64,000 nt of DNA from Salegentibacter salinarum (lineage in GTDB: Bacteria; Bacteroidota; Bacteroidia; Flavobacteriales; Flavobacteriaceae). Both the position numbers and the translations under genes were made by a program. The stretch is from contig NZ_FUZC01000009.1 of the NCBI RefSeq assembly GCF_900168115.1, forward strand, positions 1 through 64,000. The letters run 5' to 3'. Positions within the stretch are counted from its first letter, which is position 1. Each line of letters opens with the position of its first letter. Below, one piece after another: positions 921 through 51,580 of the stretch. The notes beneath the pieces were generated by a model, which saw only the letters and a list, made by a program, of their open reading frames with translations, made no database searches and had not been told where the DNA came from.

Positions 921-963
921 TAAAGTTAAAAAGCATCAGCACTATATAAAATGATAAAGATCA
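921..963 (-). promoter_or_regulatory. usp promoter with Crp/Fnr-type operator
   Basis: The palindrome TGAT-AAAG-ATCA occupies 952-963. On the minus strand a -7 box TAACTTTA lies at 928-921 and predicts a start site at 916, which puts the palindrome centre at -41.5. The same spacing recurs at three promoters between 47.8 and 51.6 kb. The operator is also about 60 nt upstream of the predicted start of the divergent methyltransferase gene. Confidence 0.55.
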
Positions 964-1004
964 GGTTTATTGCAGAGCAAGTTAGGTAGAAAAAATTATT
1001 CTAT

Positions 1005-1012
1005 TATTTTTG
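1005..1012 (+). promoter_or_regulatory. -7 promoter box of the SPOUT methyltransferase gene
   Basis: TATTTTTG matches the Bacteroidota -7 consensus TAnnTTTG and ends seven bases before the ATG at 1020, so the transcript would have almost no leader. No TTG lies at the right distance for a -33 box. Confidence 0.4.
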
Positions 1013-1019
1013 AGCCCTT

Positions 1020-1475
1020 ATGAAAGTAGATAATTTAGAGCAGGGTTTTTTCGGCATAGGTATTCAAAATGGAAAAACTCCTGAAAATCTTGGAGTTCTT
1101 TGGCGCTCGGCCCAGAATATGGGAGCCAGTTATATTTTTACTATTGGAAATCGTTATGCGAAACAGGCTTGTGATACGCATAAAGCTGTAGGTGCAATGC
1201 CGTATTTTCATTATAAAACTTTTGAAGATTTTTATTCAAATTTACCCAAAGGCGCTATGCTGGTAGGTGTTGAACTTACAGAAGATGCTGAACCCCTTGA
1301 GACTTTTAACCATCCCAGACGCTGTGTGTATTTATTGGGAGCCGAAGATCACGGTCTTTCTAACCAAGCTATTGAAAAATCTCATTTTTTGGTGAAATTT
1401 CAATCCAGTTTAAGCCTCAATGTTTCTGTAGCAGGAAGTATTATTATGTACGATCGTAACAGTAAACTTCTTTAA
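1020..1475 (+). CDS. SpoU/TrmH-family (SPOUT) RNA 2'-O-methyltransferase
   Basis: A 151-residue single-domain SPOUT protein, probably using S-adenosylmethionine to methylate a ribose in tRNA or rRNA. The three family motifs are visible: the early Asn/Arg motif around residues 21-30 (PENLGVLWRS), the cofactor loop LLGAEDHGLS near 109-118, and the C-terminal SLNVSVAGSIIMYDR near 132-146 that forms the trefoil knot. Its length fits the minimal TrmL-like group without an N-terminal RNA-binding extension. The substrate nucleotide cannot be read from the sequence. The gene is monocistronic, with no ribosome binding site and a -7 box directly upstream of the ATG. Confidence 0.88.
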   Translation: MKVDNLEQGFFGIGIQNGKTPENLGVLWRSAQNMGASYIFTIGNRYAKQACDTHKAVGAMPYFHYKTFEDFYSNLPKGAMLVGVELTEDAEPLETFNHPRRCVYLLGAEDHGLSNQAIEKSHFLVKFQSSLSLNVSVAGSIIMYDRNSKLL

Positions 1476-1651
1476 TTCTATTTTATAAACCTGCAGAAAG
1501 GAATAAGTTATTTCCGTTTAAGACTTATGATTCTTCAGTTTTCAAATTCCTTGATTTTTATTTCTTATTTCAGGCTTTTATGATGCGGAATCTTCAGGAT
1601 TTTTTAAACAGTTTGGTTAAATTAGCGCCAATTACAATAAAACATAAAATA

Positions 1652-3598
1652 ATGAGATACTTATCCAGAGCTTTGCTTTGTCTCGCGGTAGCAGGAATGT
1701 TTTCTACGGGAGCTAAAGCACAGGAGGTTGTAGGAAACAACCAAGGTGATTTTAATGAGTTTATGGACCGTAGTGGTAATATGTACCGTGCGGCTTCAGG
1801 AAGACCGGGCCCGGAATACTGGCAGAACGAAACCGATTACGACATTGATGTCACCTTAAATGATAAAGACCATATCATTAAAGGGAAAATCACACTAACC
1901 TACACCAATAACAGTCCTCAGGAGTTAGACTTTATTTGGATGCATTTAGAGCAGAACCGTTTTACTGAAGATTCTCGCGGTACACTAACTACTCCAATCC
2001 AGGGAAATCGCTATAACGGAGATATTGACGGTGGCTATACTATCTCAAATTTAGAAGCTAAGGTGAAAAGAAGTTCATCTTCAGATTATTTAATAAACGA
2101 TACCAGGATGCAGGTTTTCTTTGAAGATCCTATCCCAGCTGAAGGAGGGAAGGCTACGGTTTCAATGGATTTTGAGTATAAAATACCGGTTGAAGGAATG
2201 GACCGTATGGGAAGGCTTGACGTTGAAGATGGGACGATTTACGCGCTAGCACAATGGTTTCCAAAAGCAGCGGTTTATGATGATGTAGAAGGATGGAATA
2301 TAGAACCATACCTTGGTGCAGGTGAATTCTACTTAGATTACGGCGATTATGATTATAAAATCACAGCACCGGCCAGCCATATAGTGGTAGCTTCGGGTGA
2401 ATTACAGAATCCGAGACAGGTATTGTCTTCTACTGTAAGAGATAGAATGGAAAGAGCCAAAGAAAGCGATTCTACGGTTTATTTAATTAAGCCTGAAGAA
2501 GTAAATGATATGTCTCTACGCGCAAAGCAAGAAGGAACGCTAACCTGGCATTTTAAAATGGAAAACACCCGTGATGTAGCTTTTGGATCTTCAAAAGCGT
2601 TTATCTGGGATGCTGCCAAAATAGATTTACCTAGCGGAAAAAAAGCTATGGCGCAATCGGCTTACCCAAAAGAGAGCGATGGGCAGCATGCCTGGAGCCG
2701 TTCTACTGAATACTCTAAAGCTTCTGTAGAACATTATTCTGAAAAATGGTTTGAATATCCTTATCCGGTGGCTGTGAATGTAGCTGCTGATATAGGTGGA
2801 ATGGAATATCCCGGACTAAATTTTTGCGGATGGAAGAGTGAAGGTGCTTCGCTTTGGGGCGTTACAGACCACGAATTTGGCCATAACTGGTTCCCAATGA
2901 TCGTTGGTTCTAACGAAAGAAGATACGCCTGGATGGACGAAGGTTTTAATACTTTTATTAACTATTATAGTACTTTAGACTTTAACGATGGTGAATATCC
3001 TGCGAGATTGAATAAAACCAGGAATATGACGGGTTGGTTCACCAGTGAGCAACGCGAAGGAATAGATACTTATCCAGATGTTTCTAACTTAAGAAATCTT
3101 GGAATGATTGCTTATTACAAACCAGCAATTGGCCTATTATTAATGCGAGAATATATTCTTGGAGAAGAGCGTTTTGACAATGCCTTTAAATCTTATATTG
3201 AGACCTGGGCATACAAACACCCACAGCCGGCCGATTTCTTTAATCATATGGAAAATGTTTCAGGAGAAAACCTTTCCTGGTTCTTTAAAAAATGGTTCTA
3301 CGGCACGGGTAATATAGACTTAGGTTTAGATGGAGTACAACAATATGAAGGAAATTACGTGATTTCTTTAACTAATAAAGGGGAAATCCCAATGCCGGTT
3401 AAAATGAAAATTACCTACGAAGATGGTTCTTCAGAGAATGTAACCCTTCCGGTAGAAATCTGGCAACGTGGTGATTCCTGGAATTACTTGCACCGTACCG
3501 ATAAAACTATTGAAAATGTAGAATTAGACCCTGATAAAATTTTACCCGATGTTAGTTCTGGTAACGATGCCTGGCCTAATTCATTTTATGAGGATTAA
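1652..3598 (+). CDS. M1-family metallopeptidase (aminopeptidase N-like), exported
   Basis: The chosen start gives 648 residues with a clear signal peptide (MRYLSRALLCLAVAGMF, ending near AKAQ). The reading frame stays open upstream to an ATG at 1580, but that would place 24 polar residues before the signal sequence. The gluzincin zinc site is present: HEFGH at residues 407-411 and the third ligand Glu430 in DEGFNTF, exactly the HExxH-x18-E spacing. The M1 substrate-anchoring motif reads GGMEYPG instead of GxMEN, as in many Bacteroidota members. It probably trims peptides in the periplasm or at the cell surface. Monocistronic, ending in a strong terminator at 3648. Confidence 0.92.
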   Translation: MRYLSRALLCLAVAGMFSTGAKAQEVVGNNQGDFNEFMDRSGNMYRAASGRPGPEYWQNETDYDIDVTLNDKDHIIKGKITLTYTNNSPQELDFIWMHLEQNRFTEDSRGTLTTPIQGNRYNGDIDGGYTISNLEAKVKRSSSSDYLINDTRMQVFFEDPIPAEGGKATVSMDFEYKIPVEGMDRMGRLDVEDGTIYALAQWFPKAAVYDDVEGWNIEPYLGAGEFYLDYGDYDYKITAPASHIVVASGELQNPRQVLSSTVRDRMERAKESDSTVYLIKPEEVNDMSLRAKQEGTLTWHFKMENTRDVAFGSSKAFIWDAAKIDLPSGKKAMAQSAYPKESDGQHAWSRSTEYSKASVEHYSEKWFEYPYPVAVNVAADIGGMEYPGLNFCGWKSEGASLWGVTDHEFGHNWFPMIVGSNERRYAWMDEGFNTFINYYSTLDFNDGEYPARLNKTRNMTGWFTSEQREGIDTYPDVSNLRNLGMIAYYKPAIGLLLMREYILGEERFDNAFKSYIETWAYKHPQPADFFNHMENVSGENLSWFFKKWFYGTGNIDLGLDGVQQYEGNYVISLTNKGEIPMPVKMKITYEDGSSENVTLPVEIWQRGDSWNYLHRTDKTIENVELDPDKILPDVSSGNDAWPNSFYED

Positions 3599-3647
3599 TT
3601 AAAGAATTTTTAGTTGAAGTAGTTATACTTTAGCTTGAATTATACAG

Positions 3648-3684
3648 AAAAGCTATTCAATTTATTTTGAATAGCTTTTTGTAT
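3648..3684 (+). terminator. Terminator of the M1 peptidase gene
   Basis: A perfect 13-bp stem (3648-3660 with 3667-3679) closes a six-base loop and runs into a T-rich tail. It lies 50 nt after the peptidase stop codon. Confidence 0.88.
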
Positions 3685-3747
3685 TTTAAGATATTCTGAA
3701 TTAGGGAAAAAAGGATTTCTTTGGAATAAATTAAAGAAATGGAATAA

Positions 3748-4058
3748 ATGGACAACCAGGAAATAATAGATAAAATTAAGACTGAAATGAAGGAACTGAA
3801 GCTCAAATAATTCATTACCGGGAACGCACCAAACCAATCTCGCCTGAGAATGCAATTGGACGGGTTTCCAGTAATAATAAAAGTGTAAATGAATCGGCTT
3901 TAAGATAGGCAGAGCAGAAATTAAAAGATCTTTATAAAGTGCTCGATAAAGCCGGAAGCAAAAATTTTGGAATTTGTGCACGCTGTAAACAACCAATTCC
4001 AGTAGGCAGGTTAATGATACGCCCGGAACGTCTATTGTGTGTAAACTGCGGCCGGTAA
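3748..4058 (+). pseudogene. Decayed DksA/TraR-family zinc-finger protein gene
   Basis: Read across frames, this stretch gives a typical short Bacteroidota DksA/TraR protein. It opens with MDNQEIIDKIKTEMKELK, has a middle segment containing TKPISPENAIGR, and ends with the zinc finger CARC-x17-CVNC (stop at 4056-4058). The frame is broken: the 5' part (ATG at 3748) and the rest are in different frames, with the shift near 3800-3810. A TAG at 3906-3908 interrupts the second part where family members usually have Gln, and several residues seem to be missing after the ENAIGR segment. DksA/TraR proteins bind RNA polymerase in the secondary channel. The zinc finger is intact, so decay looks recent. 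Sequencing error could explain one lesion but hardly all three. Confidence 0.82.
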
Positions 4059-4078
4059 AATATCAGAAAATTTTTTTC

Positions 4079-5509
4079 CTATTTTCCTCTAAACAGCTCT
4101 TTTTCTTTGATCATTTTGGTGGTACTTTCCGGAAGCATTTCTTCCCACTCCGTTTTTCCTTCCCTAATCATTTGATGCACCTGCCTGGAATGAATATCTA
4201 AGGTTTTAGGATCATAATCTTTGATATCTACAACCCGGCCATTATCTTTAAAATATTGATAAAGTTCCTGCATTCTTGGATGCACCTTTAAATTTTCACT
4301 GGTAATAATTTCCCCGGTTTCCTGATCTTTAAGCGGATAAAGATAAATTTTTAAGCTTTTGAAGAATAATTTTCCAAAAGCTTCCAGAATACCACCGCTT
4401 AAATGGCGGTAATACCTCTCGTCAAAAATATCCTGAAGGGTGCTCACACCCATAGTAAGCCCCATTCTTTCTTTAGTATGTTGGCCAAAATATTCTACCA
4501 CTTTGTAATATTCCTGGAAGTTGGAGATCATTACTGTTTGTCCTAAAGAGCCCAGTAAATCTGCACGATCAAGAAAATCCTGTTCGTCTATTTCTCCTTC
4601 TCCTTTTAAATTAGAAAGCGTGATTTCAAAAATTACAACGGTATTGTCTTTTTCTACTTTTCTTTCATTTATAAAAAGTTCAAGCGATTTCTCGTACATC
4701 GCCATATTTACTTTTGTAACCGGTCTAAAACTTCCGCGTAGCGTAAGAATATTCTTTTTATAAAGTAAACTGGCCGGTAAAATATTATTGCCATCGGGAG
4801 CGAACATAATGGCTTCCGTAATGCCTTTTTTCACCAATTCAAGGCTCATTAATCTATTGTCTACGCCTTTAAAAACCGGCCCCGTGAAATTAATAGCGTC
4901 AATTTCAATTTTATCGGTATTCAGGTGATCAAATAAATGATTAAGTAGTTTTTTAGGATTATCGTAGTGATAAAAAGCGCCATGAATAAGATTCACACCC
5001 ATTACTCCAAGGCTAATTTGCTGGTGGGATGCATTGTTTTCATGAAACTGAACATGCAAAACAATTTCACTATAATCTTCACCCGGTTTTGTTTGAAATC
5101 TAATTCCCAGCCAACCGTGGCCTTTATATTTTTTTGCCCAGTCTATGGTTGCTACGGTGTTGGCATAACTGAAAAATAATTTATTGGGATGTTTCAGTCG
5201 GGAAATACGTTCTTCAATAAGTCCCGTTTCGTAGCGCATCATACTGGTTAACCGATCTTCTGTAACATAGCGGCCATCATCTTCAATCCCGTAAATAGCG
5301 TCACTAAAATCTTTATCGTATGCGCTTAGGGTTTTTGCAACAGTTCCCGAAGCATTTCCGGCTCTAAAGAAATGACGCACAGTTTCCTGTCCGGCGCCAA
5401 TTTCAGCAAAAGTTCCGTAGATATTTTCATTTAGATTAAGGCGCATTGCCTTGTTCTGCACAGAAGTTATTTCTTCAAACTTCTTTTCTCCTTCAGCAAT
5501 TATAGACAT
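4079..5509 (-). CDS. Conserved cytoplasmic protein of unknown function
   Basis: A 476-residue soluble protein with no signal peptide or membrane segment and no motif that I can tie to a reaction. It starts with a charged segment and a notable stretch around residues 32-50 (FAEIGAGQETVRHFFRAG); Gly-rich turns there could suggest nucleotide or cofactor binding, but I do not recognise the family. Even composition and full codon coherence argue for a real, well-expressed gene. It lies 36 nt downstream of sulP on the same strand with no terminator between, so the two are probably cotranscribed. The role is unknown; a link to anion uptake is only positional. Confidence 0.7.
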   Translation of the reverse strand: MSIIAEGEKKFEEITSVQNKAMRLNLNENIYGTFAEIGAGQETVRHFFRAGNASGTVAKTLSAYDKDFSDAIYGIEDDGRYVTEDRLTSMMRYETGLIEERISRLKHPNKLFFSYANTVATIDWAKKYKGHGWLGIRFQTKPGEDYSEIVLHVQFHENNASHQQISLGVMGVNLIHGAFYHYDNPKKLLNHLFDHLNTDKIEIDAINFTGPVFKGVDNRLMSLELVKKGITEAIMFAPDGNNILPASLLYKKNILTLRGSFRPVTKVNMAMYEKSLELFINERKVEKDNTVVIFEITLSNLKGEGEIDEQDFLDRADLLGSLGQTVMISNFQEYYKVVEYFGQHTKERMGLTMGVSTLQDIFDERYYRHLSGGILEAFGKLFFKSLKIYLYPLKDQETGEIITSENLKVHPRMQELYQYFKDNGRVVDIKDYDPKTLDIHSRQVHQMIREGKTEWEEMLPESTTKMIKEKELFRGK

Positions 5510-5545
5510 CGTGTGTATTTTAGTTGAAGTATAAAGTTAAGAAAC

Positions 5546-7090
5546 TTAAGCCTTATCTACCGCAACTTTATAGGTTGGATCTTCTAAAATGTTTACATCT
5601 ATAATCGCATCGGCGTTACTAAGCAGTCTTCGGCAGTCCTGGCTTAAATGTCTTAAGTGAAGTTTTTTGCCTTGTTTATGGTATCTCTCGGTAAGCTTAT
5701 TTAAGGCTTCAATCCCCGACATATCTACCACGCGGCTTTCAGAAAAATCTATAATTACTTCTTCAGGATCGTTTAAAACATCAAATTTATCATTAAAAGC
5801 CTGTACAGATCCGAAGAAAAGAGGGCCATAGATTTCATAATGCTTTACTCCGTCTTGATCAATACGTTTTCTTGCACGAATACGTTTTGCATTGTCCCAG
5901 GCAAAAACAAGCGCTGAAATAATTACTCCGATTAATACCGCTAAAGCAAGGTTGTGAAGAATTACGGTTACAACCGTTACTAAAACCATTACCAAAATAT
6001 CAGATTTGGGCATTCTTCTAAATGTTCTTAAACTGGCCCACTCAAAGGTTCCAACCGCAACCATAATCATAAGTCCCGTTAATGCAGCCATTGGTAATAA
6101 TTCAATTACCGAAGAGCCAAACATTATAAAGATTAGCAAACTTACTGCAGCTACGATTCCTGAAAGTCTTGCTCTTGCCCCGGAAGACACGTTAATTAAA
6201 CTTTGCCCAAGCATAGCACAACCACCCATCCCGGAGAAAAATCCTGAAAGTACGTTGGCAGTTCCCTGGGCGACACATTCTTTATTTCCGCTTCCACGGG
6301 TCTCGGTAATTTCGTCTATAATATTTAAGGTTAACAAACTTTCAATTAAACCAACACCCGCCATTATCGCAGCATATGGGAAAATCAGCATTAAAGTATC
6401 CAGGTTAAACGGTACCATTGGGATGTGAAATGGAGGAAATCCACCTTTAATAGAAGCTATATCTCCAACAGTTTTTGTGTCTATACCAAATGCGGCCACA
6501 ATCCCAAAAACAACTAAAATCGCCACCAAAGTTGCAGGAACAATTTTAGTTAGTTTAGGTAATAACCAGATAATTAAAATGGCAATAATTACAAGCCCCA
6601 GAAAGGTAAACATTGGTGCACCGGTCATCCATTCTAATTCACCGGTAACAGGATTAAGTGCTTTAAATTGGTCTAATTGGGACATAAAAATAATAATCGC
6701 CAAACCGTTTACGAAACCAAAAATTACCGAATGAGGCACTAATCTAATCAATTTTCCTAGTTTTAAAACTCCCGCTAAAACCTGTATTAAACCGGCTAGT
6801 ACAACGGTGGCAAAAACATATTCGGGGCCATGGGAAATTGCTAATGCTACAATTACTACGGCAACTGCTCCTGTAGCACCGGATATCATCCCGGGACGTC
6901 CTCCCAAAATGGCAGTGACCAGTCCCATAACAAACGCGGCATACAAACCGGTTAATGGAGAAAGTCCCGCAATTAATGCAAAAGCCACGGCTTCAGGAAT
7001 TAACGCCAGAGCAACGGTAAGTCCGGCTAAAATTTCGTTTTTGTAATCTACTTTTTGTGAAAAATCAAACAGGTTGAAGATTTTTTTCAT
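5546..7090 (-). CDS. SulP-family inorganic anion transporter with STAS domain
   Basis: A 514-residue inner-membrane protein with about 10-14 hydrophobic segments up to roughly residue 405, then a cytoplasmic STAS domain (about 425-510) containing VIIDFSESRVVDMSGIEAL. The SulP signature near the N-terminus (GLTVALALIPEAVAFALIAGLSP, split here by position about 23-45) is clear. SulP proteins import sulfate, bicarbonate or other anions by proton or sodium coupling; the anion cannot be told from sequence, and marine flavobacterial members are often bicarbonate-type. It is transcribed from a well-matched promoter about 145 nt upstream, leaving a long leader, and probably carries the unknown gene at 4079-5509 downstream. 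Confidence 0.93.
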   Translation of the reverse strand: MKKIFNLFDFSQKVDYKNEILAGLTVALALIPEAVAFALIAGLSPLTGLYAAFVMGLVTAILGGRPGMISGATGAVAVVIVALAISHGPEYVFATVVLAGLIQVLAGVLKLGKLIRLVPHSVIFGFVNGLAIIIFMSQLDQFKALNPVTGELEWMTGAPMFTFLGLVIIAILIIWLLPKLTKIVPATLVAILVVFGIVAAFGIDTKTVGDIASIKGGFPPFHIPMVPFNLDTLMLIFPYAAIMAGVGLIESLLTLNIIDEITETRGSGNKECVAQGTANVLSGFFSGMGGCAMLGQSLINVSSGARARLSGIVAAVSLLIFIMFGSSVIELLPMAALTGLMIMVAVGTFEWASLRTFRRMPKSDILVMVLVTVVTVILHNLALAVLIGVIISALVFAWDNAKRIRARKRIDQDGVKHYEIYGPLFFGSVQAFNDKFDVLNDPEEVIIDFSESRVVDMSGIEALNKLTERYHKQGKKLHLRHLSQDCRRLLSNADAIIDVNILEDPTYKVAVDKA

Positions 7091-7269
7091 CAGAATATAG
7101 TTTTAATAAAATATAATGGGAAGCGGATTTTTTTCCGCAAAAAATGAATTTCGGAATCTAATAGAAATGAAGACTTAACTACCTAGGGCGGCGTAAGTGG
7201 AGACGACTGTATGCTTCTTCTGTGCTTCATAAGAGCCGGCAAAATTAGCACATTTTTTTTGATAGCCAA
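7091..7269 (-). promoter_or_regulatory. sulP promoter and long 5' leader
   Basis: On the minus strand TTG (7269-7267), a 19-nt spacer and TAATTTTG (7247-7240) form one of the best Bacteroidota promoters in the window; the predicted start is near 7235. This leaves a leader of about 145 nt that is more GC-rich in its first half than nearby spacers. It contains a small hairpin (GCGGA/TCCGC, 7123-7138) close to the start codon. I recognise no known riboswitch. The remaining 7270-7422 spacer is AT-rich and shows nothing else. Confidence 0.6.
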
Positions 7270-7422
7270 GTTTATGAGAACTTAAGTGTGAATTTTTAAT
7301 ACTTTAATAATATGAAGCCTTCTGATTATCAAATTACTAATATTTTTTGTTAGAAAATTAATAGAAAACCTAATTCAGAAATAAATTAAATCAAAAGCAG
7401 ATAAACTGTAAGTGAATCGTCT

Positions 7423-7430
7423 TACCTTTG
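7423..7430 (+). promoter_or_regulatory. -7 promoter box of era
   Basis: TACCTTTG fits TAnnTTTG and lies 19 nt upstream of the era ATG, which would give a leader of about 15 nt. No clear -33 TTG is visible. Confidence 0.4.
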
Positions 7431-7449
7431 CAGTATAAAAATTAGTAAG

Positions 7450-8331: not shown

Positions 8332-8433
8332 TTCTTCTAAAAGTTTTACCTAAGAGAATCAATTTAAAATACTTCAATTTTTTGATTGAAAACTTCCGTT
8401 TTCTAAGTTTCGGGTAAACCCGAATTTTTACAC

Positions 8434-8441
8434 TAATTTTG
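8434..8441 (+). promoter_or_regulatory. Possible -7 promoter box downstream of era
   Basis: TAATTTTG matches the -7 consensus. It lies 253 nt upstream of der and before the repeat element at 8480, so it might drive der with a long leader or be fortuitous. No convincing -33 element is present. Confidence 0.25.
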
Positions 8442-8479
8442 CAAAATAATAAAGAGACCATTAGAAAAGTCTTGTTTTC

Positions 8480-16402: not shown

Positions 16403-19012
16403 ATGAAATCTCAGGAAATAAGAAGCCAGTTTTTAGAATTTTTTAAATCCAAATCTCATAAAATCGTTCCCTCGGCACCCATGGTGTTAAAAGACGATCC
16501 CACCTTAATGTTTACCAATGCCGGGATGGTTCAGTTCAAGGAATATTTTTTAGGAAATAGTGAGCCTTCCAGTTCCCGAATTACCGATAGTCAAAAATGC
16601 CTTCGCGTAAGCGGAAAGCACAATGATTTGGAAGAAGTGGGGATGGATACCTATCATCACACCATGTTCGAGATGTTGGGTAACTGGAGTTTTGGCGATT
16701 ATTTTAAGGAGGAAGCCATAAGCTGGGCCTGGGAATTACTTACTGAAGTTTATAAAATTACTCCTGAAAACCTTTATGTTTCTGTTTTTGAAGGAAGCAA
16801 AGAAGATAAATTAGGTTTAGATACGGAAGCCCTGGAGCTTTGGAAAAAAATAGTTCCTGAAGAACGAATTGTCTACGGCGATAAAAAAGATAATTTCTGG
16901 GAAATGGGCGACCAGGGACCTTGCGGACCTTGTTCTGAAATTCATATAGATATACGTTCTGAAGCTGAAAAAGCCAAAATACCTGGAAGAGAATTGGTAA
17001 ATGCCGATCACCCTCAGGTGGTTGAGATCTGGAACCTGGTTTTTATGCAGTATAACCGAAAAGCCGATGGTTCTTTGGTAGAATTGCCTGCAAAACACAT
17101 AGATACCGGGATGGGCTTTGAACGTCTTTGTATGGCGTTACAAGGAAGGGATTCCAATTATGACACCGATGTTTTTAGACCGCTAATTTCAGAACTCGAA
17201 AAAATCACAAATTCCACCTACGGGAAATCTGAGAAAATCGATATTGCAATCCGTGTGATTGCAGATCACGTTAGAGCGGTAGCTTTCTCTATTGCCGATG
17301 GCCAGCTGCCTTCAAATACCGGTGCCGGTTATGTGATTAGAAGAATTTTAAGACGTGCTATTCGCTACGGATTTACATTTTTAGACACCAAAGAGCCGTT
17401 TATTTATAAGCTTGTAGATGTGTTAAGCAATCAAATGGGCGAAGCATTTCCAGAACTTAAATTACAAAAAACTTTATGCGAAAATGTGATTAGGGAAGAG
17501 GAGCAATCTTTCTTAAGAACATTAGATCAGGGCTTAATTTTACTGGAAAATATAATTTCTGAAACCAAGGGAAAAACCGTTTCAGGAAAAAAGGCTTTTG
17601 AACTTTACGACACATTTGGATTTCCAATAGATTTAACCGCTTTAATTCTTCGAGAACGCGGATTTGATCTTGATCAAAAAGAATTTGAAGTTCAGTTAAA
17701 AGAACAAAAAGACCGATCTCGTGCGGCAACCCAGGTTACTGCGGGAGATTGGGAAGAAATAAATCCGGTAAACGCTGAAGCTTTTGTAGGTTATGATCAT
17801 TTAGAAACAGCTACCAGAATTGCGCGTTACCGAAAAGTAGAAAGTAAAAAAGGAGCGTTGTACCAAATTGTGCTAACCCAAACTCCGTTTTATCCGGAAG
17901 GTGGAGGGCAGGTTGGAGACAAAGGTTTTCTTAAGGATGCTGATGGCAATAAGGTTGAAATCACCGATACTAAAAAGGAAAACAATTTAATTGTTCATTT
18001 TGCTAAATCCCTGCCAAAAGATCCTACAGCTGAAGTTAAGGCGGTTGTAAATCCAAAAACCAGGGCTGCTACAGCGGCAAACCATACGGCTACGCATTTG
18101 CTGCACCAGGCGCTTCGGGAAGTTTTAGGTACTCACGTAGAACAAAAAGGCTCCTTGGTAAAAGGAGATTATTTGCGTTTTGATTTTTCGCATTTCAGCA
18201 AGGTAACTAAAGAGGAACTAGAGCAAATTGAAAAACTGATAAACCAACGAATTAACAAGCGATTGCCGTTAGAAGAACAACGAAGCATTTCGTATAAAGA
18301 AGCGGTGAACCAGGGTGCTTTGGCACTATTTGGTGAAAAGTACGGGGATTCGGTTCGCGCCATTCGCTTTGGGAAATCTATGGAGCTTTGCGGGGGGATC
18401 CACGTACAGAATACATCAGAAATCTGGCATTTTAAAATCACTGCGGAAGCTGCGGTTGCTTCAGGAATTAGAAGAATTGAAGCGATTACCGGGGAAGCGG
18501 TTAAAGAATATTTTGCCAACCAGGATGAGGTTTTACAACAAATTAAAGCAGAACTGAAGAATGCAAAAGATCCTGTAAAAGCGGTGAATACTCTGCAGGA
18601 AGAAAATGCTATTTTAAAAAAGAAGGTAGAAGCTTTACTAAGAGACAAAGCTAAAAATTTAAAGAGCGAATTAAAATCTGAAATTTCAGAAATAAACGGG
18701 GTGAATTTCCTTGCTAAAAGAGTAGACCTGGATGCTGGGGGAATAAAAGATCTTGCTTTCCAACTGGGCGATGAATTTGAGAATTTGTTTTTATTATTCG
18801 GAACCGAGCATAACGGAAAAGCACTTTTAAGTTGCTATATTTCTAAAAATCTCGCACGAGAAAAAGATTTGCACGCAGGAAAAATTGTAAAAGAACTTGG
18901 TAAATTTATCCAGGGCGGTGGCGGTGGACAGCCGTTTTTCGCAACTGCCGGTGGTAAAAAACCGGAAGGAATTAACGAAGCTTTGCAGGAAGCAGCATCT
19001 TATTTAAGTTAG
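16403..19012 (+). CDS. alaS: Alanine--tRNA ligase
   Basis: An 869-residue class II aminoacyl-tRNA synthetase that charges tRNA-Ala. The N-terminal catalytic core (about 1-260) shows [18 protein letters not shown] and [17 protein letters not shown]. The editing domain (about 560-710) has [16 protein letters not shown] and the zinc site CGGIHV that clears mischarged Ser and Gly. The C-Ala domain ends with a Gly-rich stretch ([14 protein letters not shown]) near 832-846. All domains are intact and the length is normal. The GSCFA gene follows after 48 nt in the same direction. Confidence 0.98.
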
Positions 19013-43354: not shown

Positions 43355-43365
43355 ATTTTGTAATT

Positions 43366-44538: not shown

Positions 44539-44632
44539 TGATTTTAATTTTAATCAAAGATAGGTTTTAATTTCTGCCCTATAAATCCGAGTGAATTGCA
44601 CAGAATTATTAATTTTAAATGAAATTAAGTTT

Positions 44633-45406
44633 ATGGAAAGAAAGATAAGGCCGTACGTTATGGCCGAAACCAATTGGAAGCACGTTAAAGCAGAAGATTT
44701 TAGGATAGCTGTTTTGCCCTGGGGAGCTACCGAAGCGCATAATTATCACCTGCCTTATGCTACGGATAATATTCTTGCCGAAGAAGCTGCTATAAGCGCA
44801 GCCCGCAAAGCCTGGCTAAAGAATGCGAAAGCAGTGGTTTTGCCTACAATTCCGTTTGGAGTAAATACCGGGCAAATGGATGTTAAACTATGCATGAATC
44901 TTAATCCCAGTACTCAATATGCTATTTTAAAAGATGTGGCGCAGGTTTTAGAGAAACATAAAATCAATAAACTGGTAATTCTCAACGCCCATGGCGGAAA
45001 CAATTTTAAGCAAATGATCAGGGAATTAAGCCTTGAATTTCCGGAGATTTTTGCTTGTTCCGTAAACTGGTGGCAGGTTACAGATGCAAAACCTTATTTT
45101 GAAGAGCCTGGCGACCATGCAGGTGAACTAGAAACCGCGGCTGTAATGCATTTACGACCGGAGTTAGTTTTGCCCCTGGAAGAAGCGGGAGACGGCAGCG
45201 CCAAAACTTTTAAAATTAAAGCTTTAAAGGAAGGTTGGGCGAGTGCGCAACGGGAATGGACTCAGGTTACCGAAGATACCGGGGTAGGAAACCCTAAAGC
45301 TGCAACTGCAGAAAAGGGAAAAATTTTCTTTGAAAAAGCAACCGATATGATTGCTGATTTCTTCCAAGACTTACACGAGGCCGATCTCCAAGACATGTAC
45401 CAATAA
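44633..45406 (+). CDS. Creatininase-family amidohydrolase
   Basis: A 257-residue cytoplasmic metalloenzyme. ATG at 44633 is chosen; the frame extends to 44591, but with residues not seen in the family. Metal-binding motifs are LPWGATEAHNYHLPYATDN (about 30-48, Glu, His and Asp ligands), NAHGGNNF (about 118-125) and DHAGELETA (about 156-164). The family includes creatininase and enzymes acting on cyclic amides or formamides in nucleotide and cofactor pathways; the substrate here is unknown. LrgA and LrgB genes follow 15 nt later in the same direction. Confidence 0.87.
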   Translation: MERKIRPYVMAETNWKHVKAEDFRIAVLPWGATEAHNYHLPYATDNILAEEAAISAARKAWLKNAKAVVLPTIPFGVNTGQMDVKLCMNLNPSTQYAILKDVAQVLEKHKINKLVILNAHGGNNFKQMIRELSLEFPEIFACSVNWWQVTDAKPYFEEPGDHAGELETAAVMHLRPELVLPLEEAGDGSAKTFKIKALKEGWASAQREWTQVTEDTGVGNPKAATAEKGKIFFEKATDMIADFFQDLHEADLQDMYQ

Positions 45407-45421
45407 CTTCTAAAAATCGCT

Positions 45422-45754
45422 ATGCTTAAAGCCTTAGCTTATATTTTTGGATTTTTACTTTTAGGTGAGTTAATCACCTATTTTTTTGAACTCCCAATCG
45501 CCGGCAATATCCTGGGGATGTTCCTTATTTTCTTAGCTTTAAGATTAAAAATAATAAAACTTCAGGATGTAAAACCAGCCTCAGATAAGCTTATAAAATA
45601 CCTGGTTCTGTTCTTTATTCCCTATGGTGTAGGATTAATGGTTTATTTTGAGATCATTGCGAATTACTGGTTGCCAATTTCGGTAGCGGTAATTGCCAGC
45701 ACAGTAATCACACTTTATATTTCAGCAATAATTATTGAAAAATTCGGGAAGTAA
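45422..45754 (+). CDS. CidA/LrgA family membrane protein
   Basis: A 110-residue protein of four membrane helices. The LrgA signature is PIAGNILGMFLIFLALRL (about 26-43), with KLIKYLVLFFIPYGVGLMVYF (in parts) in the third helix region. LrgA/CidA proteins are holin-like and form membrane channels that affect lysis, membrane potential or small-molecule export. It overlaps lrgB by one base (TAATG). Confidence 0.92.
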   Translation: MLKALAYIFGFLLLGELITYFFELPIAGNILGMFLIFLALRLKIIKLQDVKPASDKLIKYLVLFFIPYGVGLMVYFEIIANYWLPISVAVIASTVITLYISAIIIEKFGK

Positions 45755-46458
45755 TGCAAGAATTTATTCAATTACCAATATTTGGAGTTTTTATTAGCAT
45801 TATCGCTTTTGCAGGAGCACGTGAGCTTCGGAAGAAATTTAATTACGCGCTGCTTACTCCGGTTCTGGTAGCTATTGTTTTTATTATTTTATTTTTATTC
45901 ATTTTCAATATTGATTTTGATACTTATAATCGCGGGGGAAAATATATCAGTTTTTTCCTGGGGCCATCGGTAGTGGCGCTTGGCGTCTTCTTTTATGAAA
46001 AATATGAAGAAGTAAAACAGAATTTAAAAGTGTTCTTACTTTCGGTAGCCATTGGTGGAATAACCGGAGTGTTAACTGTGATTATTTTTCTCCTCCTTTT
46101 AAAAGTTCCAGACTTTATAATTGAATCGCTTGCGGCAAAATCGGTTACTACGCCAATTGCTATTGAAATCACCAAACTTACCGGTGGAATTCCTGAAATT
46201 ACCGCCGGAATTGTAATCGCCGTTGGAATTTTTGGAAATGCTTTTGGTCCTTTTATTCTGAAGAAATTAGGAATAAAAAGCAAAATAGCCATCGGTACCG
46301 CTTTGGGAACGGCCGCTCACGGGATTGGTACCGCCCGAGCCTTTGAAGAAAGCAAACTCGCCGGAGTTTACAGTGGCCTGGCAATGTGTGTAAATGGAAT
46401 TATCACCGCACTTATTACTCCTTATCTGATTCAGTTATCCTTTTGGGGTGTCTCCTGA
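45754..46458 (+). CDS. LrgB family membrane protein
   Basis: A 234-residue polytopic inner-membrane protein with roughly seven helices. It carries LrgB signatures: KSVTTPIAIEITKLTGGIP (about 129-147), GIVIAVGIFGNAFGPF and GTALGTAAHGIGTARAFEES. With LrgA it forms a pair thought to transport or modulate small metabolites and murein hydrolase activity; LrgB relatives in plants carry glycolate and pyruvate-type compounds. Its 3' end overlaps the convergent antiporter gene by 24 nt. Confidence 0.93.
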   Translation: MQEFIQLPIFGVFISIIAFAGARELRKKFNYALLTPVLVAIVFIILFLFIFNIDFDTYNRGGKYISFFLGPSVVALGVFFYEKYEEVKQNLKVFLLSVAIGGITGVLTVIIFLLLLKVPDFIIESLAAKSVTTPIAIEITKLTGGIPEITAGIVIAVGIFGNAFGPFILKKLGIKSKIAIGTALGTAAHGIGTARAFEESKLAGVYSGLAMCVNGIITALITPYLIQLSFWGVS

Positions 46459-47706
46459 TTCGTTTTCGTTTTGTTCCGTTTTCCGCTTAAAATATTCAAT
46501 AATTGAAGGAGCAGTAAAACCGTGAACCACTATGGAAATTAAAATAATATACGCGGTTATGGAATAGAGTTCATTTTTATATTCAAAATCTTCAAATTCA
46601 ACAAAAGCCCAGGCAAGATAAAATACAGAACCAATTCCTTTAATCCCCAGGAAACTAATAGCGAGCTTATTTTTAAAACTGTCTCTAATCCCCGTCATAC
46701 TTATAATTCCTGCAAGGGGTCTAATAATTAAAACAAAGGCAAAAGCGAATACAATTCCGCGCCAATCGGTAAGGCTTAGCATACCATTCATAATAGAACC
46801 ACCAAAGAGAATAATCCAGACCACCAATAAAATGCGTTCTATTTCATGAATAAAATCGTGCATTTTGGTTTTATAATCTCCGCTAACTTTTTCGTAATGC
46901 CTAAGGCTTAATCCCGTAAAGAATACCGCGAGAAATCCGTAACCGTGTAATAGTTCTGTGGCCCCGTAACTAAACAAGGTAAGTGAAAGTGCGAGAAAAC
47001 CATCAAAAGTTTTTATGCCCGCATATTTGTGAACTTTATCGAGGGTAAACCCTATAGCATTTCCAATGGCAAAACCCGCGATAGTACCGATTATAATTTT
47101 TAAAAAGAACTTATCAAGCATCCAATCAGTAAAATCAAAAGCAGCCCAACCACCGGCTTGCGCCACTAGAACAGCCATATAAGTAAAAGGGAATGCAAGG
47201 CCATCGTTTAAACCTGCCTCTGCTGTAAGAGAGAACCTTATTTTTCCTTTATATTCCTTTTCCCTTTCCGGATCGTCGAGTTGAGTTTCAGCAGCTAAAA
47301 CCGGATCGGTAGGGGCGAGTACTGCAGCGAGTAATAAGGAGGAAGGGACACTAAAAAACAGGAAATTCTGTCCCAGGAAATAAGCCGAAACCATACAAAG
47401 CGGCATAGTGAGAAACACTAATAAAAATGGTCTTTTCCAGGCTTTAAAACTGTAATTATTTCCAATTTTTAAACCTGCGCCCATCAGGGAAATAATAACA
47501 ATCATTTCAGAGAAATACATAAGTCCCTCATCTGCCCATAAAGGATCTGGCCATCCAATAGGTAAGCCTAATCCCAACAAAAGAAAACCGATAAGTAATA
47601 AAATTATGGGACCGCTAACCTTTATTTTTTTTGAAATTGAAGGCAGCCAGGCCATGATAAGAGTGGTGAAACCAATTCCCGCTAAGATCCAGTAGTGTTC
47701 TTTCAT
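46435..47706 (-). CDS. Na+/H+ (cation:proton) antiporter, CPA1-like
   Basis: A 423-residue inner-membrane protein with about 12 helices. It shows ASYFLGQ and VLAPTDPVLAAETQLDDPE (about 132-150), in which TDP marks the unwound helix of CPA antiporters, and AEAGLNDGLAFPFTYMAVL (about 163-181), where the ND motif supplies the ion-binding Asp. The C-terminal tail is short and charged. It should exchange Na+ or K+ for protons. The gene ends inside the last 24 bases of lrgB on the opposite strand and diverges from the small membrane protein gene at 47885. Confidence 0.93.
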   Translation of the reverse strand: MKEHYWILAGIGFTTLIMAWLPSISKKIKVSGPIILLLIGFLLLGLGLPIGWPDPLWADEGLMYFSEMIVIISLMGAGLKIGNNYSFKAWKRPFLLVFLTMPLCMVSAYFLGQNFLFFSVPSSLLLAAVLAPTDPVLAAETQLDDPEREKEYKGKIRFSLTAEAGLNDGLAFPFTYMAVLVAQAGGWAAFDFTDWMLDKFFLKIIIGTIAGFAIGNAIGFTLDKVHKYAGIKTFDGFLALSLTLFSYGATELLHGYGFLAVFFTGLSLRHYEKVSGDYKTKMHDFIHEIERILLVVWIILFGGSIMNGMLSLTDWRGIVFAFAFVLIIRPLAGIISMTGIRDSFKNKLAISFLGIKGIGSVFYLAWAFVEFEDFEYKNELYSITAYIILISIVVHGFTAPSIIEYFKRKTEQNENESGDTPKG

Positions 47707-47816
47707 ACAATTATAAAAATAGCTGATTTTAATTGATCTTGTTTAAAGCGCATTAAACTTTTGCAAAAGTCTAACATTAGAATTCGTCAGCTTTTCAGGT
47801 TTATTCGCTAATCAAC

Positions 47817-47859
47817 TGATATTTATCATATTAAAATATTTGATTTCAGGCTAAATTTG
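47817..47859 (+). promoter_or_regulatory. Promoter with Crp/Fnr-type operator at -41.5
   Basis: The palindrome TGAT-ATTT-ATCA (47817-47828) is followed by TAAATTTG (47852-47859). The -7 box predicts a start at 47864, so the palindrome centre falls exactly at -41.5. This start excludes the GTG at 47861 as initiation codon and supports ATG 47885. Confidence 0.65.
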
Positions 47860-47884
47860 GGTGAATAATCAACACAAATATAAG

Positions 47885-48271
47885 ATGGACACTTCCTTAT
47901 TTCTCGCTAAATTTTGGGGTTGGTACCTCTTGATTTTCTTTTTTGTACTGAGTTTTAATCCTAAAAGGATAAAACAAATCTTTGAAGACCTAAAAGATCA
48001 TAAGTTTTTAATATTAGCTGCTTTTGCTGCTATAATTATAGGTTTACTCAATATTTTATTTCATAATATCTGGGAATTAAGCTGGAAATTTATAATAACC
48101 GCCCTGGGTTGGATTTCGCTTTTTATAGGCCTTGGACTTTTTATTTTTCCTGAACCTACCACCCGAAAGCTTACTGTAATTAACCTAAAGTTCGTGCAGG
48201 TTGTTTATGTGCTTTTATTCCTTTTGGGAATTTTCTTACTCAATATGGGGTACGGACTCGTTTTATACTAG
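47885..48271 (+). CDS. Small four-helix membrane protein of unknown function
   Basis: A 128-residue protein, almost entirely hydrophobic, with four predicted membrane helices (about 5-22, 36-53, 63-83 and 100-126). A short basic loop NPKRIKQIFEDLKDHK follows the first helix. I recognise no domain. The gene is 24 nt upstream of the P-type ATPase gene with no terminator between, so it is likely its cotranscribed partner, perhaps an accessory subunit. The promoter carries a Crp/Fnr-type operator. The start is set by the promoter: the earlier GTG would lie before the predicted transcript start. Confidence 0.8.
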   Translation: MDTSLFLAKFWGWYLLIFFFVLSFNPKRIKQIFEDLKDHKFLILAAFAAIIIGLLNILFHNIWELSWKFIITALGWISLFIGLGLFIFPEPTTRKLTVINLKFVQVVYVLLFLLGIFLLNMGYGLVLY

Positions 48272-48295
48272 TAAAATAATTTCGAAATATTTAAA

Positions 48296-50980
48296 ATGAA
48301 AAATGTCTTCCCCAAGACGCTTCCCGGTAATAGTTGCTTTACTCTAAAAGTTATGTTGAAAGATCCACACGCTCTGTCTTCTAAAGAAATCCTTTCAGAA
48401 TTAAAGGTAGATCCCGGTAAAGGCTTAACTGCTGCTGAGGTTTCTGCCCGGTTTAAAAAACACGGAGCTAACCGATTAAAAGAGTCTAAATCTAAAAATA
48501 TCGGACTTATATTTTTAGAACAATTTCTTGATCCTATAATTTATATTCTGGCTGCTGCAATGGCCCTGGCTTATTTCTTTGGCGAGTGGCTGGAAGGCAC
48601 GGCCGTTTTGATTGTGATCCTTATTACCGCGCTTATCGGGTTTTTTATGGAATGGCAAGCAATTCGGTCGGTAGAGGCTTTGCAGAAAATGGTAGAAACC
48701 CTCGCCAATGTTTTACGCGACGGAAAAGAAGAACAAATTAAGGCTACAGGTTTGGTGCCGGGAGACATTGTCATCCTGGAAAGCGGTGATGTAATCCCTG
48801 CCGATTGCCGAATGTTGGAAACCGAAAGCTTTGCGGTAAAAGAAGCCATTCTCACCGGAGAGAGTAATCAGATTGAAAAAAATGCTGAAGCGCTTCCCGA
48901 TAAAGTTCCCCTGGCCAACCGAAAAAATATGCTTTATAAAGGCACCATTGCCGTTAGGGGTAAAGCAAAAGCAATTGTAATATCCACAGGAATTAAAACT
49001 GAAATTGGCCGTATTGGCGAGCTCACCAGTAGTGCTAAAAAGGAAAGTACGCCATTAGAAAAGAAGTTGAAGCGATTAAGTAGGTGGCTTATCTGGCTCA
49101 CTTTAGTCCTCGCTATTCTAATTGTAGTCACCGGCTATTTTCAGGGCAAAGATTTAATGTTAATGATAAAAACCGGAATTGCCTTGGCGGTAGCTGCAAT
49201 TCCTGAAGGTTTGCCCATAGTTGCTACTATTGCTCTTGCCCGGGGAATGCTTCGACTTTCTAAGAAGAATGTAGTGATCAAGAAATTGGAGGCGGTTCAA
49301 ACCTTGGGAGAAACCGGGATAATTTGCACCGATAAGACCGGTACGCTTACCGAGAATAAAATGAGCGTTCATCATTTAATGTTGGGCACTTTAGATTTTC
49401 CTGCCACTGAAGCCTCAAATTTCAAAAGTGATCCTGCTTTTGAAAAACTGGTACTAATTGGTAGTCTCTGTAATAATTCAAAATTAAAAGATGATAAATT
49501 CACAGGAGATGCGGTGGAGATCGCTTTGGTTGAATTCGTGGCTGAAATGGGATCTGATTATAAAGAACTTCAGCAAAAATATCCGAAAATACAGGAAGTT
49601 CCATTTGATGCTGAAATTAAGAAAATGGCCACTCTACATACTTTAGAAAATCAACATTTAACTTGCGTAAAAGGGGCTTTGGAGGCTTTACTCGGTTCCT
49701 GTGATTTAATTTTAACCAAAGATGGTCCCAAAGATTTTGTGGATAAAGATGAATGGCAAAAACAGGCAAAATTAATCGCTGCCGAAGGAATGCGGGTCCT
49801 GGCTTTTGCATTTAAACAGACCGGCACAAAGCCTGCTTATGAAGATTTAATGAAAAACCTCACTTTCGTGGGGATTTTAGGATTTTTAGATCCGCCACGA
49901 AAGGATATTAAACAAGCTATTGAAACTTATAAAAATGCGGGAATAAGAGTGGTAATGGTCACTGGCGATCACCCAGATACAGCAAGAAAAATAGGAGAGG
50001 AGATTGGGTTAATTGCTGAAGACGCACCCGACGAAATGGTGGTACACGGTGCCGATCTTGAAGAAATTGGAAGTTTAACCGAAGATAAACAAAGAACCTT
50101 AATGCAGGCAGGCATTTTTGCCAGGATGGTTCCCGGCCAGAAGCTGGATTTAGTAAAATTTTATCAGAAGAATAAAGCAATCGTCGGGATGTTGGGCGAT
50201 GGTGTAAATGATGCCCCGGCCCTTAAAAAAGCAGATATCGGCATTGCTATGGGAATTAGGGGAACCGAGGCTGCAAAAGAAGTCGCAGATGTAATTTTAA
50301 TGGACGATAAATTCACTTCTACCGAACTTGCCATAAGACAGGGGCGTACCATTTTTGAAAATATCAGGCAGTTTGTGATCTTTCTGCTTTCCTGTAACCT
50401 GGCAGAGATAATTTCAGTGGCTCTGGCCTCATTAAGCAATTTGCCAATGCCATTGCTTCCGCTGCAAATACTTTTCCTAAATCTTGTTACCGATGTTTTC
50501 CCGGCGTTAGCGTTGGGAGTTGGCAAAGGAGATCCGAATATCATGAAAGATCCACCAAGGGATCCGCAGGAGCCAATTCTTACTAAAAAGCATTGGACCG
50601 CAACAGTTTTGTATGGATTAAGTATTACCGCAGCGGTGATTGGGGCAGTGGCTTACACTCATTTTAAAATGGGGCTAAGTGCTATTGTGGTAAACAATAT
50701 TGCTTTCTACACCCTTATTTTAGGACAGTTGCTAAATGTCTTTAATCTTCCGGGAAGAAAAATATCTTTTTTAAAGAATGAAGTTACCAGCAACCCATGG
50801 GTTTGGGGAGCATTAATATTTTCAGTTTTAACTATGGTACTGGTTTATCATATTCCGTTAATGGCAGAAGCTTTATCGCTGGTGCCACTTTCAACGAATC
50901 ACTTTGTGGTTATCATCGTTTTTGGGTTTGCTTCATTAGCATTATCACAAATATTAAAGCATTTGAAATTGGCTAATTAA
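48296..50980 (+). CDS. Cation-translocating P-type ATPase, SERCA-like (ATPase 1)
   Basis: An 894-residue P2-type pump; ATG at 48353 (19 residues later) is an alternative start. An N-terminal cation ATPase domain (about 25-90) precedes the A domain with LTGES (about 184-188). The phosphorylation motif DKTGTLT is near 346-352, MVTGDHPDTA follows near 553-562, and the hinge GDGVNDAPALKKADIG lies near 637-652. Cation-site residues of animal SERCA are retained: PEGLP in helix 4 (Glu309), CNLAE in helix 5 (Asn768, Glu771) and NLVTD in helix 6 (Asn796, Thr799, Asp800). Ca2+ export is therefore plausible. It is cotranscribed with the small membrane protein upstream. Confidence 0.94.
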   Translation: MKNVFPKTLPGNSCFTLKVMLKDPHALSSKEILSELKVDPGKGLTAAEVSARFKKHGANRLKESKSKNIGLIFLEQFLDPIIYILAAAMALAYFFGEWLEGTAVLIVILITALIGFFMEWQAIRSVEALQKMVETLANVLRDGKEEQIKATGLVPGDIVILESGDVIPADCRMLETESFAVKEAILTGESNQIEKNAEALPDKVPLANRKNMLYKGTIAVRGKAKAIVISTGIKTEIGRIGELTSSAKKESTPLEKKLKRLSRWLIWLTLVLAILIVVTGYFQGKDLMLMIKTGIALAVAAIPEGLPIVATIALARGMLRLSKKNVVIKKLEAVQTLGETGIICTDKTGTLTENKMSVHHLMLGTLDFPATEASNFKSDPAFEKLVLIGSLCNNSKLKDDKFTGDAVEIALVEFVAEMGSDYKELQQKYPKIQEVPFDAEIKKMATLHTLENQHLTCVKGALEALLGSCDLILTKDGPKDFVDKDEWQKQAKLIAAEGMRVLAFAFKQTGTKPAYEDLMKNLTFVGILGFLDPPRKDIKQAIETYKNAGIRVVMVTGDHPDTARKIGEEIGLIAEDAPDEMVVHGADLEEIGSLTEDKQRTLMQAGIFARMVPGQKLDLVKFYQKNKAIVGMLGDGVNDAPALKKADIGIAMGIRGTEAAKEVADVILMDDKFTSTELAIRQGRTIFENIRQFVIFLLSCNLAEIISVALASLSNLPMPLLPLQILFLNLVTDVFPALALGVGKGDPNIMKDPPRDPQEPILTKKHWTATVLYGLSITAAVIGAVAYTHFKMGLSAIVVNNIAFYTLILGQLLNVFNLPGRKISFLKNEVTSNPWVWGALIFSVLTMVLVYHIPLMAEALSLVPLSTNHFVVIIVFGFASLALSQILKHLKLAN

Positions 50981-50993
50981 ACTTTGTCGTGAC

Positions 50994-51036
50994 TGACGAA
51001 AATCATACTTTTTCAGTCAGCTATGTATTAATTTCA
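50994..51036 (+). promoter_or_regulatory. Promoter with Crp/Fnr-type operator at -41.5
   Basis: TGAC-GAAA-ATCA (50994-51005) precedes a weak -7 box TAATTTCA (51029-51036). The geometry predicts a start at 51041, again with the palindrome centre at -41.5. The operator overlaps the 3' untranslated end of the ATPase gene by position only. Confidence 0.5.
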
Positions 51037-51058
51037 TTTCATATTAAAACTATTAATT

Positions 51059-51499
51059 ATGGAAAGTATTAGGAAAAGACCAAAAGGTGATTTTATTGCC
51101 GAAGCCAATATGGAACAGCTCTATACGCTTACCAAACACTGGAATTCAGATTTACATTTTTTCAGGGACGATCTCATTTTTCTTCATAAACTTTTAGATA
51201 GCTATTTTATATGGATAGATAAAGATGAAAATTATAAAGTAGCGTCAAAAATGAAGAATGAACTCCTCAAGCTAAAAGAACGCTGCCAGGATCTTTTGGA
51301 TAAAACCGATAAACATAGACAGCAAATTGGCAAAATGATTCTTGAAAAAATGGAAGATTCCAGGCTTTTTAGAATGGAACACGAACATTTGGAAGATGAA
51401 ATTGCAAGTTTTGTAAAAGCCTTCAGGTTAAACAGGTTAGAACTTTTTAAGATTACCGAGTATATAAAAGACAACGATAAGCTTCCTGAACTCTCCTGA
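51059..51499 (+). CDS. Helical protein of unknown function
   Basis: A 146-residue, charged, almost wholly helical protein with no signal peptide or membrane segment. Heptad-like patterns run from about residue 30 to 135, so a coiled-coil or four-helix bundle is likely. I recognise no family. His and Glu residues are plentiful (for example HEHLEDEIASF near 102-112), and an iron- or oxygen-binding bundle is imaginable but unproven. It lies between the SERCA-like ATPase and the hibernation factor, with a Crp/Fnr-type operator at its own promoter. Confidence 0.75.
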   Translation: MESIRKRPKGDFIAEANMEQLYTLTKHWNSDLHFFRDDLIFLHKLLDSYFIWIDKDENYKVASKMKNELLKLKERCQDLLDKTDKHRQQIGKMILEKMEDSRLFRMEHEHLEDEIASFVKAFRLNRLELFKITEYIKDNDKLPELS

Positions 51500-51537
51500 C
51501 ATATAACTACCAAAAGATGGCTTAATTGAAACCAAAG

Positions 51538-51580
51538 TGACCTTCATCATATTTTATGATAAGCCTTAAACCTAATTTTG
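51538..51580 (+). promoter_or_regulatory. Promoter with Crp/Fnr-type operator at -41.5
   Basis: TGAC-CTTC-ATCA (51538-51549) precedes a perfect -7 box TAATTTTG (51573-51580). Predicted start 51585 puts the palindrome centre at -41.5. It also shows that ATG 51604, not the earlier ATG at 51556, begins the protein. Confidence 0.65.

Follow-up and report, generated by a model that had tools for sequence, protein, structure and literature searches.

A genome-wide set of fixed-position operators in Salegentibacter salinarum points to a probable Crp/Fnr class II regulon for oxygen limitation

FixL-FixJ-FixK2 is a rhizobial cascade that ends in a Crp/Fnr-type regulator and has the cbb3 oxidase among its targets. 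The operators of Escherichia coli FNR follow the consensus TTGAT-N4-ATCAA, and in mycobacteria the LuxR-type regulator DosR serves a dormancy regulon through a different operator. In Myxococcus xanthus, according to sections of the original article (PMC11841059), the NmpRSTU system connects a heme kinase to universal stress proteins (USPs) and to a P-type ATPase, together with the cbb3 oxidase and hemN. Here we analyse a stretch of 64,000 nucleotides (nt) of the flavobacterium Salegentibacter salinarum (contig NZ_FUZC01000009.1, positions 1 to 64,000; hereafter the window), in which four promoters carry a short palindrome at a constant distance from the -7 box, and we follow this arrangement through the genome, the genus and the class Bacteroidia. 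Our results suggest that the switch is probably thrown at low oxygen, by a regulator that is kin to the known ones and is built differently.

The four promoters, ahead of a usp gene, a P-type ATPase operon, the gene of an all-helical protein and a ribosome hibernation gene, share the form TGAY-N4-RTCA, 23 nt, TAnnTTTG-like -7 box, as measured directly on the sequence. The original prediction had placed 12-nt palindromes upstream of these genes with their centres at -41.5; the palindromes lie exactly where they had been reported, and the 23-nt gap was measured in each case. In Flavobacterium psychrophilum, sections of the article on mapped transcription starts assign the -7 box to positions -12 to -5 (PMC9723704). 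With the box so placed the palindromes span -47 to -36, centred at -41.5, the start positions given here being predictions from the box location in that other flavobacterium. At all four promoters an ATG follows 14-21 nt past the predicted start. The box of the helical gene, TAATTTCA, is weak, as had been pointed out, and the same weak box is nonetheless found in six of seven Salegentibacter sequences. The four sites are very probably part of a Crp/Fnr class II regulon.

The possibility that these are chance encounters of a short degenerate palindrome with AT-rich boxes draws on the palindrome alone, which is mildly enriched: six are present in the window versus 2.75 expected, a number reached by 4 of 100 shuffles, and 208 genome-wide versus 141 for the reversed control. 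Such an enrichment is too weak as evidence. The composite of palindrome and box, on the other hand, is not due to chance. When palindromes were paired with TANNTTTG at gaps of 8-38 nt, the gap was 23 in 8 of 11 among the pairs listed; with TANNTTT it was 23 in 20 of the 70 pairs listed (binomial p about 5e-14 if each gap is given an equal chance of 1/31), and any other gap accounted for at most four of these 70. As a palindrome with more than one gap may not have all of them on the list (e.g. C13:20970), the figure of 20 is slightly low. A genome scan for the 12-mer at -41.5, proposed at the outset, came out in favour of the claim: the exact 43-nt pattern (palindrome followed by T, gap of 23, box; 14 specified positions) occurs 21 times, its reversed control and the version with the gap moved to 28 occur 0 times each, and none of the 21 sites falls within an ATG-started open reading frame (ORF) of at least 100 amino acids (aa). 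With up to one mismatch, 38 sites were found versus 6 for the reversed control, the helical-gene promoter of the window among them; of the 17 one-mismatch matches, about 6 are expected by chance from that control. Site lists are those of exact patterns and miss weak sites. The left flank of the palindrome is C in 13 and T in 1 of 20 sites, and the right flank is T in 19 of the 20 gap-23 pairs with TANNTTT; the site at C15:241480, which has the 23-nt gap without the T, was left off the exact list. The fixed spacing already refutes chance, and conservation and class-wide counts, described below, leave it a negligible probability.

Conservation was examined in six other Salegentibacter genomes at three promoters (ATPase operon, helical and hibernation genes; the usp promoter lay outside the comparison), each scored where it fits best in the 115 nt next to the start, and with the window sequences included. 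At least 13 of the 14 specified positions are present at gap 23 in 20 of the 21 promoter sequences, and the helical promoter of L209 has 12. Invariant specified positions number 14/14 for the ATPase operon, 13/14 for the hibernation factor and 11/14 for the helical gene, the corresponding unspecified positions being 15/29, 13/29 and 11/29. Relatives of the helical protein were found at seven loci, six of them in Salegentibacter, with up to 95% identity. In an uncultured distant relative (L211, 49% identity), a palindrome, 23 nt and TAATTTTA precede the helical gene.

The regulon had been described as one of four promoters, which does not hold, as the genome contains at least 21 exact sites. 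They lie ahead of three of the four window genes, of ccoNO (C13:197297; assigned by Pfam), of genes for a nitroreductase, an outer-membrane beta-barrel, a zinc alcohol dehydrogenase, a phosphoenolpyruvate-synthase-like enzyme, a short-chain dehydrogenase, formate-tetrahydrofolate ligase, NadA and OsmC, of an MlaE-type operon, of USP genes (C15:44208, C30:123782 and C33:24549, the last with a weak Pfam match), and of a cytochrome c gene preceding nosZ (also assigned by Pfam). Ahead of the Hsp20 gene, the distance from predicted start to ATG is 332 nt for an exact site and 39 nt for a one-mismatch site, and a one-mismatch site lies ahead of a second OsmC gene (C16:2658). Further one-mismatch sites are found 13-38 nt before the start of genes for a radical-SAM protein and a heavy-metal P-type ATPase (reading as hemN and ccoI, respectively), an nhaA-type antiporter, nosZ (its second site) and the C15 USP (another site); the names hemN and ccoI are sequence readings beside a broad Pfam match. 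The distance from site to called start is short in many cases and 60-379 nt in others, partly owing to missed starts. The nos cluster (L067:2053-5868, on C35) has its two sites before the cytochrome c gene and, with one mismatch, before nosZ. Beside the nos site, L067:1464-1880 encodes a small protein with no Pfam match that by eye recalls the helical protein of the window.

The target set suggests a low-oxygen response, as it includes the cbb3 oxidase together with its copper pump, heme synthesis of the oxygen-independent kind and N2O reductase. Oxygen limitation, which had been offered as one possible signal, is still the best guess given these FNR/FixK-type targets. The Crp/Fnr class II assignment made at the same time is likewise supported, by the fixed -41.5 centre, the FNR-like TGAY half-site, the conservation, the absence of exact sites from ORFs of at least 100 aa and the ccoNO, nosZ, ccoI-like and hemN-like targets. 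In F. psychrophilum, the sections cited above report that the cbb3 oxidase and heme genes are up under oxygen limitation, and the main text contains 0 occurrences each of Fnr and Crp (PMC9723704). The combination of USPs with cbb3 oxidase, P-type ATPase and hemN targets, under what may also be a heme kinase here, resembles NmpRSTU; unlike the present case, NmpRSTU has a globin-type sensor and an NtrC-type regulator, whose DNA-binding part is unrelated (PMC11841059). Several targets also have counterparts in the DosR regulon, namely USPs, the alpha-crystallin Hsp20, a nitroreductase, a calcium-type P-type ATPase and a ribosome-associated factor. This likeness is convergence, not membership.

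A Crp/Fnr gene had been expected elsewhere in the genome, and a search with PF13545 (Crp-type helix-turn-helix) gives six matches, the weakest of which is a protein reading as GntR-like. The Crp count is a minimum, since a Crp-like protein on C33 was missed by this search; it lies at L073:4147-4725 between two regulon sites, with a cNMP_binding match and a different helix. The C30 protein (L072:3236-4270) combines a receiver, cNMP_binding and HTH_Crp_2 in one chain. It is followed by a USP gene with a site, and directly upstream lies a kinase gene (L072:1963-3195), whose PAS domain has its best solved matches in FixL (1d06, 1e-17), with DosP further down. Both the heme-ligand His and the distal Arg of FixL are present in this PAS domain; the genome's other three PAS matches showed no His at the equivalent position, in weak alignments of which one is incomplete. 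Among 20 fusion relatives with flanks, selected from the leading entries of a larger set, a kinase with a FixL-like PAS lies directly upstream of the fusion in 16; L172 and L179 have a two-kinase arrangement, L178 has a divergent kinase without this PAS match, and at L182 no kinase was found at the fusion locus. These 20 loci include USP matches in 11 and gap-23 sites, the T not being required, in 8. The region L179:4809-16241 (G159) has a pair of receiver-Crp fusions within 10 kb; four gap-23 sites, one without the T, lie between and around them.

As in FixL-FixJ-FixK2, a PAS kinase with FixL-like heme residues, a final Crp/Fnr-type regulator and a cbb3 oxidase target occur together. Unlike in that cascade, receiver and Crp/Fnr parts form one protein, the FixJ output domain and a separate fixK step are absent, and the phylum and promoter type differ. 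We consider it reasonably likely that the C30 fusion and its FixL-like kinase are the main controller here, and it is likely that the four window sites serve as class II operators in an oxygen-limitation regulon that extends over the genome and is under this pair.

The recognition helix reads E-x-x-I-R in all 30 of the top fusion loci, in 6 of 6 FNRs of the family and in 17 of 24 other Crp proteins read, and E-x-x-S-R in solved FNR. The Ser of the FNR helix is linked to the outer T of TTGAT. Its replacement by Ile would fit the loss of this T: the sites do not follow the full TTGAT-N4-ATCAA operator, the left flank being T in 1 of 20 sites. The system thus resembles FNR of E. coli and Aliivibrio in the TGAT-N4-ATCA core, class II position, the Glu and Arg of the helix and the ccoNO/hemN-type targets, and differs from it in flanks of C and T, not T and A, and in a candidate regulator without Fe-S cysteines.

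This last point bears on the idea that the operator is used as in E. coli, by an Fe-S FNR that senses oxygen itself. Six sampled family members do have a stand-alone protein with an N-terminal C-x2-C, and in that of G247, aligned to solved FNR, both the C-x2-C and a central Cys align. In reads of the first three sites per genome (30 of 63 listed, 3 of the 30 without a called ORF), a site lies ahead of ccoNO in 5 and of hemN in 3 of these six genomes, while in the two other fusion genomes sites lie ahead of USPs in both and of hemN in one. In S. salinarum, however, whose genome is 99.98% complete, the best match to the Cys-bearing FNR (7e-27) is at the level of Crp/Fnr cross-matches, and an N-terminal C-x2-C is found in none of the five Crp proteins read. 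An Fe-S FNR at these operators is therefore very improbable, and for this genome it is refuted, barring a Cys-bearing FNR in a part missing from the assembly.

Within the family, exact sites are present in all nine genomes. A close fusion without a close Cys-FNR characterises three of them (this one, G165 and G272), and in five of the six Cys-FNR genomes no Crp with a long open frame was found at E up to 1e-15. Mutual exclusion of the two regulators was considered and dropped: G101 has both, a distant receiver-Crp fusion (L138:1066-2115) with E-x-x-S-R and a Cys-FNR with E-x-x-I-R, and the split is not clean. Likewise, the receiver-Crp fusion is not the only regulator of such sites, as relatives without it have them. 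At L172:4548-6330 (G068), the gene of a stand-alone Cys-FNR adjoins that of a receiver-Crp fusion, both downstream of two kinases, an arrangement that is possibly an intermediate of a regulator swap.

Across 295 Bacteroidia genomes the exact pattern was found at 821 sites in 192 genomes, versus 22 sites for the reversed control and 56 sites in 50 genomes with the gap moved to 28. The architecture of operator and box is widespread, and it is probably old. With regulator classes assigned by best E-value similarity at chosen thresholds, and the kinship of related genomes ignored, the mean number of sites per genome is 3.0 with the fusion only (78 genomes), 2.98 with Cys-FNR only (80), 6.93 with both (45) and 0.40 with neither (92). 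The order of both, either and neither holds under three other threshold pairs, and that of the two single classes varies.

Several observations weigh against the kinase-fusion pair as controller of an oxygen regulon. The exact site is absent in 19 of the 78 fusion-only genomes, and at least one is present in 22 of the 92 genomes with neither regulator. Both classes contain errors, some above-threshold matches having short open frames (e.g. 232 aa in G057), and the fusions of G101 and G081 fall below the class thresholds. In G021 and G294, of the same order and another family, each with nine exact sites, none of the four ORFs at six sites read matches the regulon references. The architecture is for this reason not tied to oxygen genes everywhere, and the operator may serve another response there. 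As to the sensor, the heme-ligand His is present in all 19 PAS domains compared (this genome's own and 18 from relatives' loci), though these were picked for their likeness to the PAS of this genome, a choice that favours the His. FixL's distal Arg is found in 6 of the 19, own included, with Met in 6 and Ile in 4, so that there may be differences in oxygen affinity or even in the ligand. Lastly, the genome has other candidates with the E-x-x-I-R helix, at C15 and C35.

The variation at the distal position, with FixL's Arg absent in most relatives' PAS domains, and the presence of nosZ among the targets would suit a regulator that senses nitric oxide or general redox state rather than oxygen. 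We regard this as improbable: the ccoNO, ccoI-like and hemN-like genes have micro-oxic functions, the PAS domain of this genome keeps both FixL residues, and in the sections cited above oxygen limitation brings a rise of cbb3 oxidase and heme genes in a flavobacterium (PMC9723704). The other candidates raise a different question, namely whether the same operators and regulon are mainly activated by the C15 paralogue (L064:9169-10179) or the sensorless C35 protein (L004), the FixL-like pair having a side role. The C15 gene has sites on both sides (C15:42914, 44208 and 44558) and is followed by three USP genes (L064:9169-13172), and about 6-6.5 kb separate the C35 gene from the nos sites. The C15 protein, however, has no receiver match in Pfam and no kinase directly beside it, a CheB/CheR/PAS kinase being 4.6 kb off, whereas fusion and kinase are paired in most relatives examined and the presence of the fusion goes with that of sites; a main role for C15 or C35 is hence unlikely, if less so than the nitric oxide or redox sensor. 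The C15 protein, if a receiver that has lost phosphorylation, could be a competitor or a constitutive partner.

For the kinase-fusion pair, a mechanism can be proposed by analogy with FixL and FNR. Starting from the computed gene pairing and heme-ligand His, the kinase PAS domain would carry a heme that loses its oxygen at low oxygen, and the unliganded kinase would then phosphorylate the receiver of the fusion. From the computed sites, spacing and conservation, a Crp/Fnr-type dimer may be expected to bind CTGAY-N4-RTCAT centred at -41.5, where the bound fusion would contact the polymerase in the class II position and activate a sigma-A promoter whose -7 box lies 23 nt downstream. The computed target set suggests that the output would comprise micro-oxic respiration (ccoNO, ccoI, hemN and nosZ) together with survival functions (USPs, Hsp20, hibernation factor, calcium-type ATPase and nitroreductase).

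In the window, four of the six palindromes have the gap-23 box. On the minus strand, the operator TGATCTTTATCA (952..963) and the -7 box TAACTTTA (921..928; predicted start 916) precede usp (72..902), which encodes a universal stress protein of 276 aa (PF00582, 7e-31). All remaining promoters lie on the plus strand, with centres at -41.5 as for usp. The operator TGATATTTATCA (47817..47828), identical in six other Salegentibacter genomes, and the box TAAATTTG (47852..47859; predicted start 47864) precede a gene for a small membrane protein (47885..48271; 128 aa when translated from the ATG that follows the predicted start), for which a scan of its 136-aa form gave no Pfam match and one NCBIfam match far under cut-off. 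It is followed by the P-type cation ATPase (48296..50980), whose best solved match (2e-158) is lmo0841, a calcium pump of Listeria. Close by, the opposite strand carries another P-type cation ATPase gene (52519-55197), with no TGAY-N4-RTCA palindrome near its start.

The operator TGACGAAAATCA (50994..51005), conserved in Salegentibacter, and the weak box (51029..51036; predicted start 51041) precede the gene of the all-helical protein (51059..51499; 146 aa), for which long helices are predicted (mean pLDDT 85). This protein has no Pfam or NCBIfam match, and fold comparison gave 0 matches with E up to 0.001 and no informative relative. The operator TGACCTTCATCA (51538..51549), also conserved in Salegentibacter, and the box TAATTTTG (51573..51580; predicted start 51585) precede the gene for a ribosome hibernation factor of the HPF/YfiA type (51604..51903; 99 aa; PF02482, 7e-13; under the NCBIfam yfiA cut-off). 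Its translation is predicted from 51604 and not from the in-frame ATG at 51556, because the latter lies upstream of the predicted start. The two other palindromes, at 17665 (within ORF 16403-19012) and 20093, were set aside from the regulon, having no gap-23 box and at most two of six fixed positions.

Neither an Fe-S FNR system in this genome nor a strict FixL-FixJ-FixK cascade, the system is a variant of the FixL-FixJ-FixK/FNR theme. In the open-licence literature, searched by titles and the starts of abstracts, no description was found of a FixL/receiver-Crp system or of a -41.5 regulon in Bacteroidota. We give even odds to a broader proposal, that Bacteroidota have a two-gene oxygen switch of FixL-like heme kinase and receiver-Crp/Fnr fusion, which collapses FixL-FixJ-FixK to one step. 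In parts of the class this switch would have displaced the Fe-S FNR from shared -41.5 operators, and it would have extended a respiratory core by a dormancy-like branch of USPs, Hsp20, ribosome hibernation and a calcium-type pump. The presence of both regulators in the family member G101 lowers the odds of this proposal. Our work makes the operator, the spacing and the regulator for low-oxygen control in aerobic Bacteroidota testable. Moreover, sister lineages appear to use two different sensors for the same operators, a natural case in which the regulator is exchanged and the regulon conserved, and ribosome hibernation and stress proteins would be linked to oxygen limitation in a marine genus.

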